DNA from: a virus
Strand: one strand, 5' to 3'
Length of the DNA stretch: 23,918 nt
Virus record (IMG/VR): IMGVR_UViG_3300030406_005420
Location: 1-23,918 of that record
Shown here: piece after piece, positions 1 through 23,434 of the stretch
Layout: each line of letters begins with the position of its first letter
Numbering within the stretch: the stretch's first letter is position 1
Made by a program: the position numbers and the translations under genes
Notes under the pieces: model-generated
Told to the model about the DNA's origin: nothing
What the model saw: the letters and a program-made list of their open reading frames with translations, nothing else
The model's database searches: none

Positions 1-11
1 AAATCAAGCTA

Positions 12-1574
12 ATGATGGGCGCGCAAAAGGTAAGCTTCAGAGGCAGACGCGGGCGCACTTATGGAAACCTTGAAACGCAAGGCGCAATGATTTCAGATTT
101 TAGAAATCAAATAATCCATAATGTAGAGGGCGCGCGCTACTATGTGTTTAAAGCTGACTTTCCAATGATTGCAGATGTTGCAATGAACCATAACTCAAAC
201 CATGTTGGGATGCACTTATTGCAAGGCAGCATGCGCCAGCGCAATCTGCATTATTGCAATGATTGTAGCTCACACTATCGCAACTTTTGCAGATGCATCA
301 GTCATCATAGAATGGAAAGCCGCGCAGCATCTGATGCAGTCATCTTTTATGATGTGCAAGGCGATGAAGTTCGCACAAAAGATGGAAGCATGAACGCTGG
401 CAAAAAAGCAACTGAGCGCAAGGCGTTCATAGGTTGTGAGTTTGAAATCTCAAACGACAAACAAAGCAAAAGCAGAAATGAACAAAACTTGCAGCTTGTA
501 AGATGGGCAAAGCGCAGCGTAGGCGTTCACTTTGCAAAACTGCTTAACAACTTCACAACTGATGGCACGCTAACAAATGGTGTTGAAATCATAACGCAGC
601 CATTCAGTTCTGATTACTTTGATAAATTCAGAACCGCTTTTGAAAGCTTGTCAAATCAGTTTGCAAAGCAAGGCATGGCGGGGCATCGCAGCAATAACTA
701 TGGCGATAGCATCGGGATGCATATCCACATCAGCAAGGATGCTTTTTCACGCTTGCACTTGCAACGCTTTTTGAAGCTGAATTATCAATCAGTAGAGCAG
801 CTGAGATTGCTTAGCAATCGCGGTAATAGATGCTATGGCGCATCTCAAATATCATCGCAGAGCTTCAGCGGGCGCAGAAGCAGCGGGCGCGCAAATCCAA
901 CGCGCAATACTGCAAAAGCGCTTGGCTTCAACAAATCAGAAGCTGGCTATTTGAGCGATAAAGAAATCAAGGCGCTTGCGGCTGACATCTTTAATGGTGG
1001 AAGCGTAGGCAGTCGCTCATGGTGGAACCATAGCAATTACAAAACAATGGAATATAGATTGCCAGCAATGGTTACTGACAAAGCAGTGAAAGGCAAGGAT
1101 GGCGCACAATTCAACTTGATGGTTTCACAAATTGAGTTAATGTTTGCCATGTATGATTTCACACGCAAGGCAAACTTCAATGATTGCACTTTTAAAAATT
1201 TTGTGCTTTGGCTTAAGAAGTCAAAATACAAAAATATATTAGGTGCAATTCAAGCAAATGACGCAGTGCTTGTTGCAACGTTTGGCAAAGGCAAAATCTT
1301 GAGCGGTGAGGTGAAAGTCAGCGGCTTAGATGAAGCAGCGGAAAGCATGCAGACTTTAAAAAGTCAGCTGCTTGATGATGATGTTGATTTCACGCTTTCA
1401 AACTTAGGGCAGCTGCGCGATATGATAAACGCGGGCGCCGATGCGATGGATGAAGTTTTCAAAAATCCAGCGCTTGATGAAATTGCGATTGAAAAAGAGG
1501 TTGCAGACTTTAAAAGCAAAGGCAAGGCAAAGCACAAAAAAAACAAAAACAAAAATGAAAGTGAGGTTCAATAA
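12..1574 (+). CDS. Amidoligase-fold (glutamine synthetase-like) protein, 5' end possibly truncated
   Basis: The 520-residue protein carries the signature of the Amidoligase_2 family, a glutamine synthetase-like fold that joins an amine to a carboxylate using ATP. In order these are GCEFEI at 141-146, DGTLTNGVEIIT at 184-195, GMHIHI at 235-240 and TMEYRLP at 345-351, which supply the acidic, histidine and arginine residues expected for metal and nucleotide binding. Residues 82-95 hold a CxxC...CxC cluster that may bind zinc. The C-terminus is lysine- and asparagine-rich. The next gene is a class II glutamine amidotransferase that overlaps the stop by one base (TAATG), so the two probably act together, with ammonia or a glutamine-derived amide as donor. 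The substrate cannot be read from the sequence. The frame is open to base 1, so the true start may lie outside the window. GC-rich codons set it apart from the genes after 2.97 kb. The fold is fairly sure; the role is inferred. Confidence 0.82.
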   Translation: MMGAQKVSFRGRRGRTYGNLETQGAMISDFRNQIIHNVEGARYYVFKADFPMIADVAMNHNSNHVGMHLLQGSMRQRNLHYCNDCSSHYRNFCRCISHHRMESRAASDAVIFYDVQGDEVRTKDGSMNAGKKATERKAFIGCEFEISNDKQSKSRNEQNLQLVRWAKRSVGVHFAKLLNNFTTDGTLTNGVEIITQPFSSDYFDKFRTAFESLSNQFAKQGMAGHRSNNYGDSIGMHIHISKDAFSRLHLQRFLKLNYQSVEQLRLLSNRGNRCYGASQISSQSFSGRRSSGRANPTRNTAKALGFNKSEAGYLSDKEIKALAADIFNGGSVGSRSWWNHSNYKTMEYRLPAMVTDKAVKGKDGAQFNLMVSQIELMFAMYDFTRKANFNDCTFKNFVLWLKKSKYKNILGAIQANDAVLVATFGKGKILSGEVKVSGLDEAAESMQTLKSQLLDDDVDFTLSNLGQLRDMINAGADAMDEVFKNPALDEIAIEKEVADFKSKGKAKHKKNKNKNESEVQ

Positions 1575-2206
1575 TGTGTGTAGCAATAATAAAAACAAAA
1601 GGTAATAGAATAACAAGAAAAGAGCTAACGCAAGCATGGGATTGCAATCCCGATGGCGCGGGCGTAGCATGGGCAGAGCAAGGCAAACTAAAAGTAATTA
1701 AATCTTTTAATGCTGATGGTTCCATGATGGAAAGCAAGGCGTTCATTGATAAGCTTGTCAAGCTTCAAACTAAGTTCATAAATCATAATATGATAATTCA
1801 CTTTAGAATAGCAACGCAAGGCTATGGATTGGATGGTTTGCCGAATGTTGAAAATTGTCATCCTTTTGCAATTCATAAGGATGTAGTTTTTGCGCACAAT
1901 GGCATCATATCTGACATGCCCGATAGCAATCTGATTTCAGACACGCGATTTTTTAATCGCTTAATTCTGCGTAAGCTTCCATTTAAGTTTGAGATTGGAA
2001 ACTCTGCCTTGCGCACTATGATTGAAAACTCGATTGGTTCAAGCAAGTTTGTTTTCTTGAATAGTAGCGGCGAATATGATATCGCCAATGAAGCGTTTGG
2101 CGTTTGGAAAGGCGGCAACTGGTTTTCAAATCAGATGCACTGCCGCATGGCGCAGCGCTTCAGCTTCAGAAATCAAACAACCATATTTAATGAAAGTGAG
2201 GTGTAA
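1574..2206 (+). CDS. Class II glutamine amidotransferase (Ntn-hydrolase)
   Basis: This 210-residue protein begins Met-Cys, so Cys2 becomes the N-terminal nucleophile once Met is removed, as in GlxB/GATase_2 enzymes that release ammonia from glutamine. Supporting motifs are NPDGAG at 25-30, HFRIATQG at 76-83 with the glutamine-binding arginine, NCHPF at 94-98, and HNG at 108-110 for the oxyanion site. There is no synthase domain, so ammonia must go to a partner. The obvious partner is the upstream amidoligase-like protein, whose stop codon overlaps this start. A GTGAGGT stretch just upstream serves as the ribosome-binding site. The same 14-base sequence occurs at the end of this gene. Regulatory YafJ-like homologues share the fold, so a non-catalytic role is possible, but all the key residues are present. 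Confidence 0.87.
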   Translation: MCVAIIKTKGNRITRKELTQAWDCNPDGAGVAWAEQGKLKVIKSFNADGSMMESKAFIDKLVKLQTKFINHNMIIHFRIATQGYGLDGLPNVENCHPFAIHKDVVFAHNGIISDMPDSNLISDTRFFNRLILRKLPFKFEIGNSALRTMIENSIGSSKFVFLNSSGEYDIANEAFGVWKGGNWFSNQMHCRMAQRFSFRNQTTIFNESEV

Positions 2207-2208
2207 GG

Positions 2209-2292
2209 ATGGGATACGCTGAAATAATAACGCTTGCATGCTATACAATAGTATTTGCAGCTGGTATCTACGACTTGATATTCCGCGACTAA
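2209..2292 (+). CDS. Tiny predicted membrane peptide (27 aa)
   Basis: A 27-codon frame starts two bases after the amidotransferase stop and is preceded by GTGAGGTGTAAGG, a plausible ribosome-binding site. The product is almost entirely hydrophobic (IITLACYTIVFAAGIYDLIF) with a short charged end, so it could span a membrane once. It sits inside the same transcription unit and stops 24 bases before the intrinsic terminator. No family is recognised. It is called because of position, spacing and composition; chance cannot be excluded for so short a frame. Confidence 0.5.
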   Translation: MGYAEIITLACYTIVFAAGIYDLIFRD

Positions 2293-3603: not shown

Positions 3604-3782
3604 TGGATTGGGTTAAAGAGTATGAGGAAAAGAGAGAGCAGAAAGCAATCGAACAATCAATGGGTAATAAAGACGAATACCATAGGTTAATGGATAGCGA
3701 GTGGGATAATTTTTATACCATTGATGATTTTCTTGATGAGCTGCGCAATGAAGTTAAAAGAGAGTTGGAGGCAAAGTTATGA
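3603..3782 (+). CDS. Small acidic hypothetical protein (59 aa)
   Basis: The frame begins at the TAATG overlap with the previous gene and ends in an ATGA overlap with the next. The product is highly charged and likely helical (EYEEKREQKAIEQ early, FLDELRNEVKRELEAK at the end). No family is recognised. The double overlap is strong support that it is translated. Confidence 0.65.
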   Translation: MDWVKEYEEKREQKAIEQSMGNKDEYHRLMDSEWDNFYTIDDFLDELRNEVKRELEAKL

Positions 3783-4072
3783 TTAAGGTAAAAGGTTTAA
3801 ATACAAAAGCATTAAAAGAAATATTGCTTAAAACTGATGGAAAGATTTTTTCGGTTTCATTTATCAAACAAAATGGAGAGTTGAGAGATATGGTAGCAAG
3901 GTTGGGGGTTAAGAGCAGAGCTATTAATGCTGAAAAACCATCAAGCGCCTTGCAGAATGGCAAGCCATATATACTTGTATTCGATATGCAAAAAGATGGG
4001 TATAGGGTTGTCAATTACGAAACAATACAAAAAATTAAATTCAATAACATAATATACGAAAGGGGTGTATAG
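3779..4072 (+). CDS. Phage SH3-like beta-barrel protein (97 aa)
   Basis: Residues 26-50 read as a strand pair with ELRDMVARLGVKS, followed by a loop and KPYILVFDMQKDGYRVVNYETI. This arrangement (a basic RLGVK segment, then a VFDMQK.GYR.VN...I block) resembles small SH3-like barrel proteins seen in phage accessory regions, sometimes grouped under DUF2693-type names. No catalytic residues are apparent, so a nucleic-acid or protein-binding role is the likeliest guess. It overlaps both neighbours by one to four bases. Confidence 0.65.
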   Translation: MIKVKGLNTKALKEILLKTDGKIFSVSFIKQNGELRDMVARLGVKSRAINAEKPSSALQNGKPYILVFDMQKDGYRVVNYETIQKIKFNNIIYERGV

Positions 4073-20102: not shown

Positions 20103-21070
20103 TACTTAAATATGTTATAATTAACTCTTTTATTATTTCTTCTTGTGAGCTTTACACTTCTGACACCAGCGTTGTCTGTGTGTTCATGTTTGCCCATTAC
20201 CTCTATTTCCCACTCATCATTAAGTGTAGCAGATGAATTGTCTGCTGAACCTTGAAATCTTATTTCTAATCCACTAACACAAGCCTGATAATCTCCATTA
20301 ACTGTTTGAGCATCAACAACTAATTTGTTTTTTAATCCATCACTATCTTTAGCCCATACAGAATATTTAGAAGTTCCTATTACTCCTGCTGTTGTAATTT
20401 TAACTTTAACTCTGTCGTAAGTGCCAGAGTAATCTCCTCTTGTATCTACTATGTTTAATGCTCCACTTACAGAAACTTTTGAAACATTGCCTTGCGACAT
20501 ATCTCCTGAAGTTTGAAATCCAAGCTTAACAATCCCTTGATTTAAGTCTTGTATGTTATTATCTGCCTCTTCATCCATTGCTTGAGCAATTTCACTTTCT
20601 GGCTCATAAGCTTTTATCATAAAGCTTGCAGCAAGCAAGGCAACAGTTCTTTTTATAAAATAATCATAACTTCCATCTTTGAGTGTAAACATTTCTTTTG
20701 GAAGAGTAGCATCTACTTTAGATTTAAAAAATGCGCTTGCATTTGAAATCATCCTTGTTTTAAATGTTGCGTTATCTTCTCCAGCTTCCATTAACATATT
20801 AACTGGACTTGTAGAGCTATTATAATAATAAACAACATCTGAAGTGCTGTTATAATACCATTCCCCATTTGCATCAACAGCTGTTTTAGAAGATTGCGCT
20901 GAACTTAAATTCTCTCCATCTGCAAAAAGTTGTGTAACTAAACCGCAATTTTCTGCTTTATATCTACTCCCGCTATCTGTTACCCAACCATGAATGATAG
21001 CTTTGCTATCAAATTCATCTATATTTGGATAAATATCGTATAAATCTCTTTCTGTTATATAATCAGCCAT
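20102..21070 (-). CDS. Head-tail connector-like structural protein (322 aa)
   Basis: The N-terminal half starts MADYITERDLYDIYPNIDEFDSK and contains helices around 110-170 (TFKTRMISNASAFFKSKVDA, then YFIKRTVALLAASFMIKAYEPE). This resembles gp6-like head-tail adaptor proteins, which begin with similar helices. The C-terminal half is beta-rich (NVSKVSVSGALNIVDTRGDYSG and onward), an extension that may face the neck exterior. The position before two completion proteins supports a connector. The endolysin end overlaps this start by eight bases. Confidence 0.55.
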   Translation of the reverse strand: MADYITERDLYDIYPNIDEFDSKAIIHGWVTDSGSRYKAENCGLVTQLFADGENLSSAQSSKTAVDANGEWYYNSTSDVVYYYNSSTSPVNMLMEAGEDNATFKTRMISNASAFFKSKVDATLPKEMFTLKDGSYDYFIKRTVALLAASFMIKAYEPESEIAQAMDEEADNNIQDLNQGIVKLGFQTSGDMSQGNVSKVSVSGALNIVDTRGDYSGTYDRVKVKITTAGVIGTSKYSVWAKDSDGLKNKLVVDAQTVNGDYQACVSGLEIRFQGSADNSSATLNDEWEIEVMGKHEHTDNAGVRSVKLTRRNNKRVNYNIFK

Positions 21071-21608
21071 TTTCTAATGTTTCCAAGGTTCTGAGCCACC
21101 AACCATAATAAAATCGTTTTTGTTCAGGTTTATGCTCTACTAATTTACTATAAAAATCTACTCTATAAGCAGCAAATCTTTTTGGACTTAATCTTTTAGC
21201 AGCACTAATCGTCTTTGGTCCAAGAACGCCATCAATTTCTAATGGAACTACTGCTTGAGAATTTATGGCTTCTTGTAATATTTTAGTAGCTCTTTTTTGT
21301 CCAGTGTTAATTACGCAGTCAAAAAAAGGATATCTAAGATTGTATGGAAGCTTATGAACTTTAGCTGGAACCCAGTAGTCCTCATAATAAATTTCTTTAG
21401 CTTTTTCTAAAGTAAGATATTCAATATTTAAATGAGGATAAAACCTTTTTGCAATACCATATTTAGTTTCTCCTCCCATATCAAGGGCGTCATTATTATA
21501 GCCGCCCTCGTTATGTATTACTTTATCAATTATTTTATCTACGTCTTTGTCAAGCATTTCGCTTCCCTCCAACGAGATAAAAATTAAAAGCAGTAAAATT
21601 CGCTTCAT
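21063..21608 (-). CDS. GH108-family endolysin (possible dual start)
   Basis: The 181-residue frame contains VIHNEGGYNNDALDMGGETKYGIAKRFYP at about 30-58, with catalytic Glu34 in the EGGY motif, then the peptidoglycan-binding part EIDGVLGPKTISAAKR. This is a glycoside hydrolase family 108 muramidase fold with a PG_binding_3-like end. Residues 1-18 (MKRILLLLIFISLEGSEM) look like an export signal or signal-anchor. The ATG for Met18 (base 21557) has a much better ribosome-binding site (GGAGGG, seven bases away) than the ATG at 21608. Both an exported and a cytoplasmic form are possible. It cleaves host peptidoglycan at lysis. Confidence 0.85.
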   Translation of the reverse strand: MKRILLLLIFISLEGSEMLDKDVDKIIDKVIHNEGGYNNDALDMGGETKYGIAKRFYPHLNIEYLTLEKAKEIYYEDYWVPAKVHKLPYNLRYPFFDCVINTGQKRATKILQEAINSQAVVPLEIDGVLGPKTISAAKRLSPKRFAAYRVDFYSKLVEHKPEQKRFYYGWWLRTLETLENG

Positions 21609-21959: not shown

Positions 21960-23030
21960 CTAATAAATTAACCAGTTAAAACCAGTTTTTGCTTCGTATG
22001 ATTGTATATCATACATGTTTAAGTATCTTGCTTCAAGAAATATACCAAACTTATCTGTTAATCTCCAGCCATATACAAGCCCTAAATCATAGTCTAATTT
22101 TTCTTTAGCTACATCATAGTTAAATGAATAGTCGCTTATTCCCTCATTAAAAGGGTAAGCTGTTAGCCAGAAATGGAACCAATTTTTTGGGTTGTATTTA
22201 TAATAATCTGCGCCTACTGATAACGCCACTTCTTGCTGCCAACCCAAATCCTTTGCATATTCTTCATTATATTCTTGAACAAGTTGTCCATATACTTGAG
22301 TATAAAATTCCTCGTCTGTTGTTGCTACAAGGTTTCCATTCTCATCCCACCATAACCAATCATAAAACTCATATCCATATTGAGTAAATTGTTGCGCCCA
22401 TTCATCTGTATATCCTTTATCATAAGCAAATAACCAGAATGGAATAAACTCACTTGTATCTATGCCTTGTTCATCCCACCATAAATCAATAGGTCTAAAA
22501 TCAAGATATGCTGGATGGCTTCTACCTGCTATACCAAGAGATAAAGCAAGATTACCAAAGTCTTTCTTATACCTCATGTCTAATCCTGCAAACTCTAAAT
22601 CTTCCAAACCTCTATAGTCGTAATTAGCTTTTACCAAGAAGTTTGTTCCTAAATACCTTAACATAAATTCTTGTTCTGTAAAGCTTTCTTCAAACTCTTT
22701 ATGGTCTGAATACTCTAATACATATTCCCATCCTGTAAGTATATTTCCTACTGCAACACTTTCATTTATAGGCGCTTCTTCTCCGCTATACCATACCTCA
22801 GGTTTATTTTCATAACCAAATCGCGCTAATTTTCTAATACCGAAAGTCATAACAGAATGGTCATCTAACTCTTCTTGTAACTCTTGTAACTGTCCACCAG
22901 TAACTTGAAATGTTTGTTCTTTTGTAACTGGACTACTTAAGCTATAAGCACCATAAATAGTGCTAAACTTAAAGAAATCTTGTGCATATAAACTCCCTGC
23001 TAATAATAAACTTAATAATAGTTTTCTCAT
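21960..23030 (-). CDS. Predicted outer-membrane beta-barrel protein with signal peptide
   Basis: MRKLLLSLLLAGSLYAQ is a textbook Sec signal peptide with cleavage after YA. The mature 340 residues are rich in Tyr, Trp, Phe and alternating strands (VEYVLEYSDHK-like, FLVKANYDYRGLE, GNLALSLGIAGR, EVALSVGADYYKYN, YDLGLVYGWRL, GIFLEARYLNMYD). The chain ends NWLIY, near the aromatic-terminus rule for barrels. Residues about 180-240 form a long, very aromatic and acidic loop. Phage-coded porins such as Lc of PA-2 replace host receptors and block superinfection, which is the best guess. Its neighbour upstream is a secreted thioredoxin-like protein. Confidence 0.72.
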   Translation of the reverse strand: MRKLLLSLLLAGSLYAQDFFKFSTIYGAYSLSSPVTKEQTFQVTGGQLQELQEELDDHSVMTFGIRKLARFGYENKPEVWYSGEEAPINESVAVGNILTGWEYVLEYSDHKEFEESFTEQEFMLRYLGTNFLVKANYDYRGLEDLEFAGLDMRYKKDFGNLALSLGIAGRSHPAYLDFRPIDLWWDEQGIDTSEFIPFWLFAYDKGYTDEWAQQFTQYGYEFYDWLWWDENGNLVATTDEEFYTQVYGQLVQEYNEEYAKDLGWQQEVALSVGADYYKYNPKNWFHFWLTAYPFNEGISDYSFNYDVAKEKLDYDLGLVYGWRLTDKFGIFLEARYLNMYDIQSYEAKTGFNWLIY

Positions 23031-23434
23031 GAAAACCTCCTTAACATAATTTTATCAATTTCTTTTTTAATTAACTTGATTATCTCTCCCTCATCTAACT
23101 GGAATGATAACCCTGCTTCAAATCTGCGAATTTCTTTACCATTTTCAAACATAATAATAGTAGGAACTGATTGAATTTTCCATTCACTTGCTATAATAGC
23201 TCCATATTCTTTATTGTCTATGCTGGCATTAAACCAAACACAATTTTTCATTTTTCCTAAATCAATAGATGCTCTTTTATTCCAATCTGCATTAATTTGA
23301 ACAACAACACATGTGTTTTGACTTAAAAACTGAATTTCTTGTAAGTTTTTAAGGGTTGATTGCCCATATAAGCAAGACGATGATAAAAACAATCCAACAA
23401 CCAATAAGCATTGTTTTAAGTATTTTTTCGTCAT
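23027..23434 (-). CDS. Secreted thioredoxin-like protein lacking the CxxC site
   Basis: The first 24 residues (MTKKYLKQCLLVVGLFLSSS then CLYG) form an export signal; C21 is a possible but non-canonical lipobox cysteine. The rest fits the thioredoxin fold: VVVQINADW at 43-51, the position of the active site holding NKRA instead of CxxC, then WKIQSVPTIIMFENGKEIRRFEAG with the cis-proline P91. Without the cysteines it cannot be a normal oxidoreductase and may act as a chaperone or binding module in the periplasm. The end overlaps the start of the barrel gene by four bases, so the two are co-expressed. Confidence 0.72.
   Translation of the reverse strand: MTKKYLKQCLLVVGLFLSSSCLYGQSTLKNLQEIQFLSQNTCVVVQINADWNKRASIDLGKMKNCVWFNASIDNKEYGAIIASEWKIQSVPTIIMFENGKEIRRFEAGLSFQLDEGEIIKLIKKEIDKIMLRRFS

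Follow-up and report, generated by a model that had tools for sequence, protein, structure and literature searches.

A predicted amidoligase and its partner glutamine amidotransferase form a two-gene cassette in a phage genome

Layout of the locus

The stretch of DNA analysed here (the window) comprises bases 1–23,918 of a 37,128-base virus record, and opens with two plus-strand reading frames coupled by a TAATG overlap (3/12–1574 and 1574–2206), encoding an amidoligase and a glutamine amidotransferase (GATase). Two bases past the GATase stop begins a 27-codon frame (2209–2292, plus strand), and a terminator-like plus-strand hairpin of 15 pairs with a T-rich tail (2316–2348) ends the unit; the overlap, the two-base gap and the terminator are thus as the earlier note had described them. 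A tRNA search of the window found none.

The amidoligase frame runs off the 5′ end of the record (base 1), and comparison with the amidoligase of the L018 locus indicates that the ATG at base 12, which had been taken as the start of the gene, is an internal methionine codon. Residues 95–581 of the L018 protein match the window frame, and in the same comparison residues 15–89 match (E 1.8e-11) the last frame of the record, a stretch of 88 codons with an open 3′ end, lying outside the window (record 36865–37128, L007:16866–17129). Given that both frames match one protein, the record ends cut the amidoligase gene, and its N-terminus is encoded by these 88 codons; the full protein would have about 615 residues. 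A few codons are absent between the two ends (~13 nt by comparison with L018), and no base was filled in; no terminal overlap of at least 10 bases was found. Since the record ends inside this gene with seemingly only these ~13 nt missing, it probably represents an almost complete genome with a circular map.

The 27-codon frame encodes a hydrophobic peptide and has a Shine-Dalgarno-like GAGGT; an identical stretch, TGAAAGTGAGGT, precedes both this frame and the GATase, so the peptide may be translated. In four close relatives (L008, L010, L011 and L012) no such peptide follows the GATase stop codon, and the hydrophobic peptides found at this place in L015 (33 aa) and L016 (49 aa) have no evident similarity to that of the window. 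Hairpins are also present downstream of the GATase in L008, L011 and L012, where the sequences were inspected. A conserved triplet including a membrane micropeptide, as the earlier note envisaged, is ruled out by the absence of the peptide from close relatives, which leaves the pair only; the peptide cannot be called a substrate or a membrane anchor, the two roles that had been suggested for it.

Downstream of the cassette are a DnaA-box-like element, TTATCCACA (2660–2668), and two palindromes, CCGACTNNNNAGTCGG (2677–2692 and 2704–2719), and a site matching the palindrome lies upstream of the cassette (record 36642–36657, in the region L007:16627–16658). The palindrome ACCGACTNNNNAGTCGGT, with 0–2 mismatches, occurs only in the two intergenic regions that flank the cassette, in this record as in L008–L011 and L018, and is accompanied by TTATCCACA and TTTTGTCGTCATAGA elements; we count this confinement among the new observations. 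From its sequence elements, the region looks like a candidate operator or a replication-control (origin) region common to the cassette and the early genes. A direct repeat, TTTTGTCGTCATAGAA, is found at 2726–2741 and 2748–2763, and recurs on the upstream side of the cassette in L008, L011 and L018.

The cassette is also distinct in composition, which is likewise a new observation: third-position G+C is 0.455 and 0.405 in its two genes versus 0.16–0.31 in the rest of the phage, and it is shifted in the same direction in close relatives, as would fit two genes of separate history. GCGC occurs 14.7 times per kb in the window amidoligase (3–1571) and 6–8 times per kb in L012, L015 and L016; the genes counted in L008, L009, L011 and L018 lack it altogether, which resembles avoidance of a restriction site in these phages.

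The two enzymes

The first gene (3–1574, plus strand) encodes the C-terminal part of an amidoligase of the Amidoligase_2 family, with a glutamine-synthetase fold, an assignment drawn from profile, conservation, predicted fold and the L018 comparison. On its own the window protein is a weak match to PF12224 (E 0.015, below cut-off), and the family was matched by 38 of 48 aligned relatives at E ≤ 0.01. Residues are numbered here from base 12 for the amidoligase and from base 1574 for the GATase. Invariant across the 48 relatives are G141, E143 and E145 of the GxExE motif (432–446), predicted metal/ATP ligands; D184 and E192 of the D...E motif in the ligase active site (561–587); G235 and H237 of GMHIH (714–728); R270, a predicted phosphate-binding arginine (819–821); and E347 and R349 of ExR (1050–1058), all on the plus strand. 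M1 of the alignment frame is invariant as well, which reflects the alignment of starts only. The order and spacing of these residues resemble those of the ligands for metal and phosphate in glutamine synthetase. A four-cysteine motif, C82-C85-C93-C95 (255–296, plus strand), immediately precedes the ligase domain; it is at least 90% conserved in the 48 relatives and probably a zinc site, and this near-invariant motif is a further new observation. Most of the relatives have additional CxxC motifs. Against PDB sequences, the amidoligase profile gave weak zinc-finger matches only, and the resemblance to RING and PHD fingers was not significant.

An AlphaFold2 model of the amidoligase (pLDDT 77, pTM 0.78, with low confidence for residues 1–78) was consistent with this assignment. 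Among the matches listed (50 PDB entries), all belong to the glutamine-synthetase superfamily, including YbdK (the best, E 7e-4), glutamine synthetases, gamma-glutamylmethylamide synthetase and PafA, with low TM-scores and moderate E-values. Viral models annotated as amidoligases, including those of phages tf and CW02, also match (best overall E 8e-14), and it is on the consistency of the PDB list together with these viral models that the fold call is made. One structural relative is annotated as a LIM-domain protein.

The second gene (1574–2206, plus strand) encodes a class II (Ntn) glutamine amidotransferase with a GlmS/GFAT-like glutaminase domain, again on profile, conservation and predicted fold. 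It matches PF13230 (GATase_4) with E 2.8e-8 and 33.5 bits against a cut-off of 23, and its profile aligns the catalytic motifs with those of GlmS. Ten residues are invariant across 46 aligned GATases, namely C2 (1577–1579), H76 and R78 of HFR (1799–1807), H96 and P97, then H108, N109 and G110 of HNG (1895–1903), S122, and D123 (1940–1942), so named features being all on the plus strand. The model (pLDDT 89.4) matches the glutaminase domains of human GFAT-1 and E. coli GlmS (E ~1e-7, probability 1.0).

The earlier note had read the two genes as a glutamine synthetase-like amidoligase and a class II amidotransferase from motifs that are indeed present, and had proposed structure prediction as a check; family, active-site and fold evidence agree for both proteins, the models matching glutamine-synthetase-superfamily and GlmS/GFAT folds. 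On alignment, the predicted ATP and metal residues of the amidoligase are intact and the predicted glutamine-site residues of the GATase are retained.

Pairing, distribution and known cassettes

Homologues were sought in viral contigs with alignment queries, as the window proteins used singly found nothing usable. The amidoligase occupies gene position −1 in 50 of 54 dereplicated GATase loci, mostly with a gap of −10 to +2 nt; conversely, a scan for the amidoligase pattern found a GATase no more than 300 nt downstream in 76 of 79 loci, the other three running off the contig. These two sets overlap, some contigs recurring in both. Exceptions to the pairing are the viral contigs L034 and L070, which begin too close to the GATase, and no amidoligase was found in the stretch seen of Bifidobacterium phage L006. 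Tree distances for the two proteins are correlated (r = 0.907, null maximum 0.181), and the two domains were never seen fused. Pairing in both search directions and the mirrored trees rule out chance adjacency. The adjacency is essentially obligate in viral contigs, the pair recurring, nearly inseparable, in well over a hundred of them from diverse phages; together with the mirrored trees, this near-obligate adjacency supports functional coupling of the two genes. In a comparison of gene neighbourhoods, then, the pair recurs and the micropeptide is not part of the conserved unit.

Pairs are also found in bacterial assemblies (Collinsella, Victivallis, Paludibacteraceae, Treponema, Lysobacterales and others), where they are perhaps prophages. 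Ten distant homologues, in Nevskia/Sinobacteraceae-type loci, have no amidoligase. Amidoligase-like genes flank the GATase on both sides in L084 and L086 (4679–5815 and 6989–8488), and also in L094.

Phage cassettes of amidoligase and GATase have already been described in LUZ24, RIO-1, phiEco32 and MEP401/402, and the present pair joins this known kind. In the cassettes of the LUZ24/tf/RIO-1/phiEco32 type, as here, an amidoligase is followed by a class II GATase within the early genes; LUZ24 gp19 matches the GATase profile (E 4.5e-7), and gp18 matches the amidoligase profile weakly (E 0.01). The LUZ24 row comprises a COOH-NH2 ligase, amidoligase, GATase, RimK-like ATP-grasp and gamma-glutamyl cyclotransferase, and no match to the first, fourth or fifth of these was found among the ORFs of this record, which rules out a full LUZ24/RIO-1-type cassette. 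The window pair is a reduced version of the known cassette. A gp21-like ATP-grasp gene is nearby in 22 of the 54 dereplicated loci, usually just downstream. MEP401 and MEP402, phages of OM43 (PMC10580990), share the gene order, the overlap and the location beside replication genes, with 37–39% identity in the GATase and 24–28% in the amidoligase, whereas they differ in being podovirus-type Zobellviridae, in their longer GATase (~290 aa), in their other neighbours and in having no palindrome region.

Outside phages, the glutaminase domain of GlmS/GFAT shares the Ntn class II fold, and its glutamine-site motifs align, but the window GATase stands alone and its partner is a ligase of glutamine-synthetase fold instead of a sugar isomerase. 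YbdK, glutamine synthetase, gamma-glutamylmethylamide synthetase and PafA share the predicted fold and the type of catalytic residues with the amidoligase, at 11–14% identity, and the window protein has an extra Cys-rich N-terminal part. MurT/GatD combines a Mur-ligase fold with a class I GATase, and is for that reason an analogue and not a relative. It resembles the window pair as two co-transcribed genes, one for an amidotransferase subunit, that amidate a carboxylate, in this case in the peptidoglycan of Staphylococcus aureus (PMC3267633).

Predicted chemistry and candidate targets

We consider it somewhat better than an even chance that the pair encodes a glutamine-dependent ligase of two subunits that forms amides, with an envelope peptide as its slightly favoured target. 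The core chemistry, a glutamine-dependent and ATP-driven amidation by a two-subunit enzyme, is highly probable; an envelope peptide is the single likeliest class of target, at rather less than an even chance. The Ntn-type GATase would hydrolyse glutamine through Cys2 to release ammonia, and the amidoligase, whose ExE, D...E, H, R and ExR residues would hold ATP and a divalent metal, would turn a carboxylate into an acyl phosphate and couple it with the ammonia (or an amine). The Cys-rich motif that adjoins the ligase domain would probably bind zinc and dock the substrate or the GATase. We infer complex formation, ammonia transfer and the timing of expression; the genes have a transcription unit of their own, adjoining the early genes. 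The proposal in the earlier note, of an amide or isopeptide bond made with ammonia from glutamine, thus stands as regards enzyme classes and coupling and falls as regards a three-gene unit.

On the envelope reading the substrate would be a cytoplasmic peptidoglycan precursor or another envelope peptide, altered to hinder competitors; cell-wall modification against superinfection has been proposed for related phage cassettes (PMC5498523, PMC10580990). That the pair also stands in the LUZ24 row, beside genes for ATP-grasp and gamma-glutamyl cyclotransferase, speaks for the main reading as a whole. The low TM-scores and moderate E-values of the amidoligase fold match count against it, as does the absence of any fusion of the domains among the loci seen. 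Nothing links the pair physically to the envelope: neither enzyme was noted to carry a signal or a membrane segment, and the membrane peptide lacks conservation. The earlier note was right to leave the target open: neither our analysis nor the cited papers identify a substrate, none having been demonstrated for such cassettes in PMC5498523, PMC10580990 or PMC10945688, and no biochemistry was found in the literature searched.

An envelope peptide is placed slightly ahead of a host or phage protein, or a nucleic acid, chosen by the Cys-rich domain, which we regard as rather doubtful. Amidated Asp/Glu side chains or an amidated C-terminus might, for example, redirect host machinery or evade defence. 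The near-invariance of the four-cysteine motif directly before the ligase domain, the additional CxxC motifs, the LIM-domain annotation of one structural relative, the presence among the fold matches of PafA, a protein-modifying ligase, and the position of the pair beside early genes all point this way; however, the RING/PHD-finger resemblance falls short of significance, zinc ribbons are found in small-molecule enzymes too, and no target gene recurs beside the pair. A little more doubtful is the specific mechanism in which the Cys-rich domain recruits a particular protein or nucleic acid for the ligase to amidate with glutamine-derived ammonia; such covalent amidation of macromolecules by phages is not described in the literature searched.

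We judge it unlikely that the pair is an auxiliary metabolic unit, one that makes or recycles a small metabolite, gamma-glutamyl or amide, and thereby shifts nitrogen or amino-acid pools in infection. The gamma-glutamyl cyclotransferase and ATP-grasp genes of related cassettes would fit such a role, but these accessory genes were not found in this record and the Cys-rich domain would be left unexplained. Phage-ZRK32, which has such genes, is reported to make bacteria grow better on nitrate or ammonium, although that study holds no gene-level test (PMC10945688). The distant chromosomal homologues that lack an amidoligase speak for another reading, in which the second protein does not donate ammonia but acts as an EgtC-like gamma-glutamyl hydrolase, trimming a glutamyl group that the amidoligase has attached. 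EgtC, a relative of the Ntn class II type, acts in a pathway with a ligase of glutamine-synthetase fold, which favours this reading; yet the best fold and profile matches are to GlmS/GFAT, with no EgtC among the matches listed, and invariance holds for the residues that align with the glutamine site of GlmS. It was judged less likely on fold and is, in our estimate, distinctly improbable. A defence system was rejected in the absence of a PADLOC match, and no modification gene that would suggest DNA hypermodification was noticed among the ORFs read.

The pair has been annotated in phages for over a decade with no substrate assigned, and the two-gene form, whose signatures are intact and beside which accessory ligases were not found, offers the simplest setting in which to ask what phages amidate. 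Were the target lipid II or peptidoglycan, this would be a phage-made change to the cell wall; a protein or a nucleic acid as target would make it a new kind of phage modification.

Several other genes of the window were noted. A WYL_2 (Sm-like) protein is encoded among the early genes (3779–4072, plus strand), and relatives of it lie downstream of the cassette in L009, L011, L012, L015 and L016. On the minus strand are genes for an endolysin (21063–21608; phrog_315, E 8e-43), for a 356-residue protein with a signal peptide, an aromatic C-terminus and no Pfam or PHROG match (21960–23030), possibly an outer-membrane barrel by these features, and for a thioredoxin-like protein, below the Pfam cut-off, with a lipobox-like signal (LSSSC; 23027–23434).
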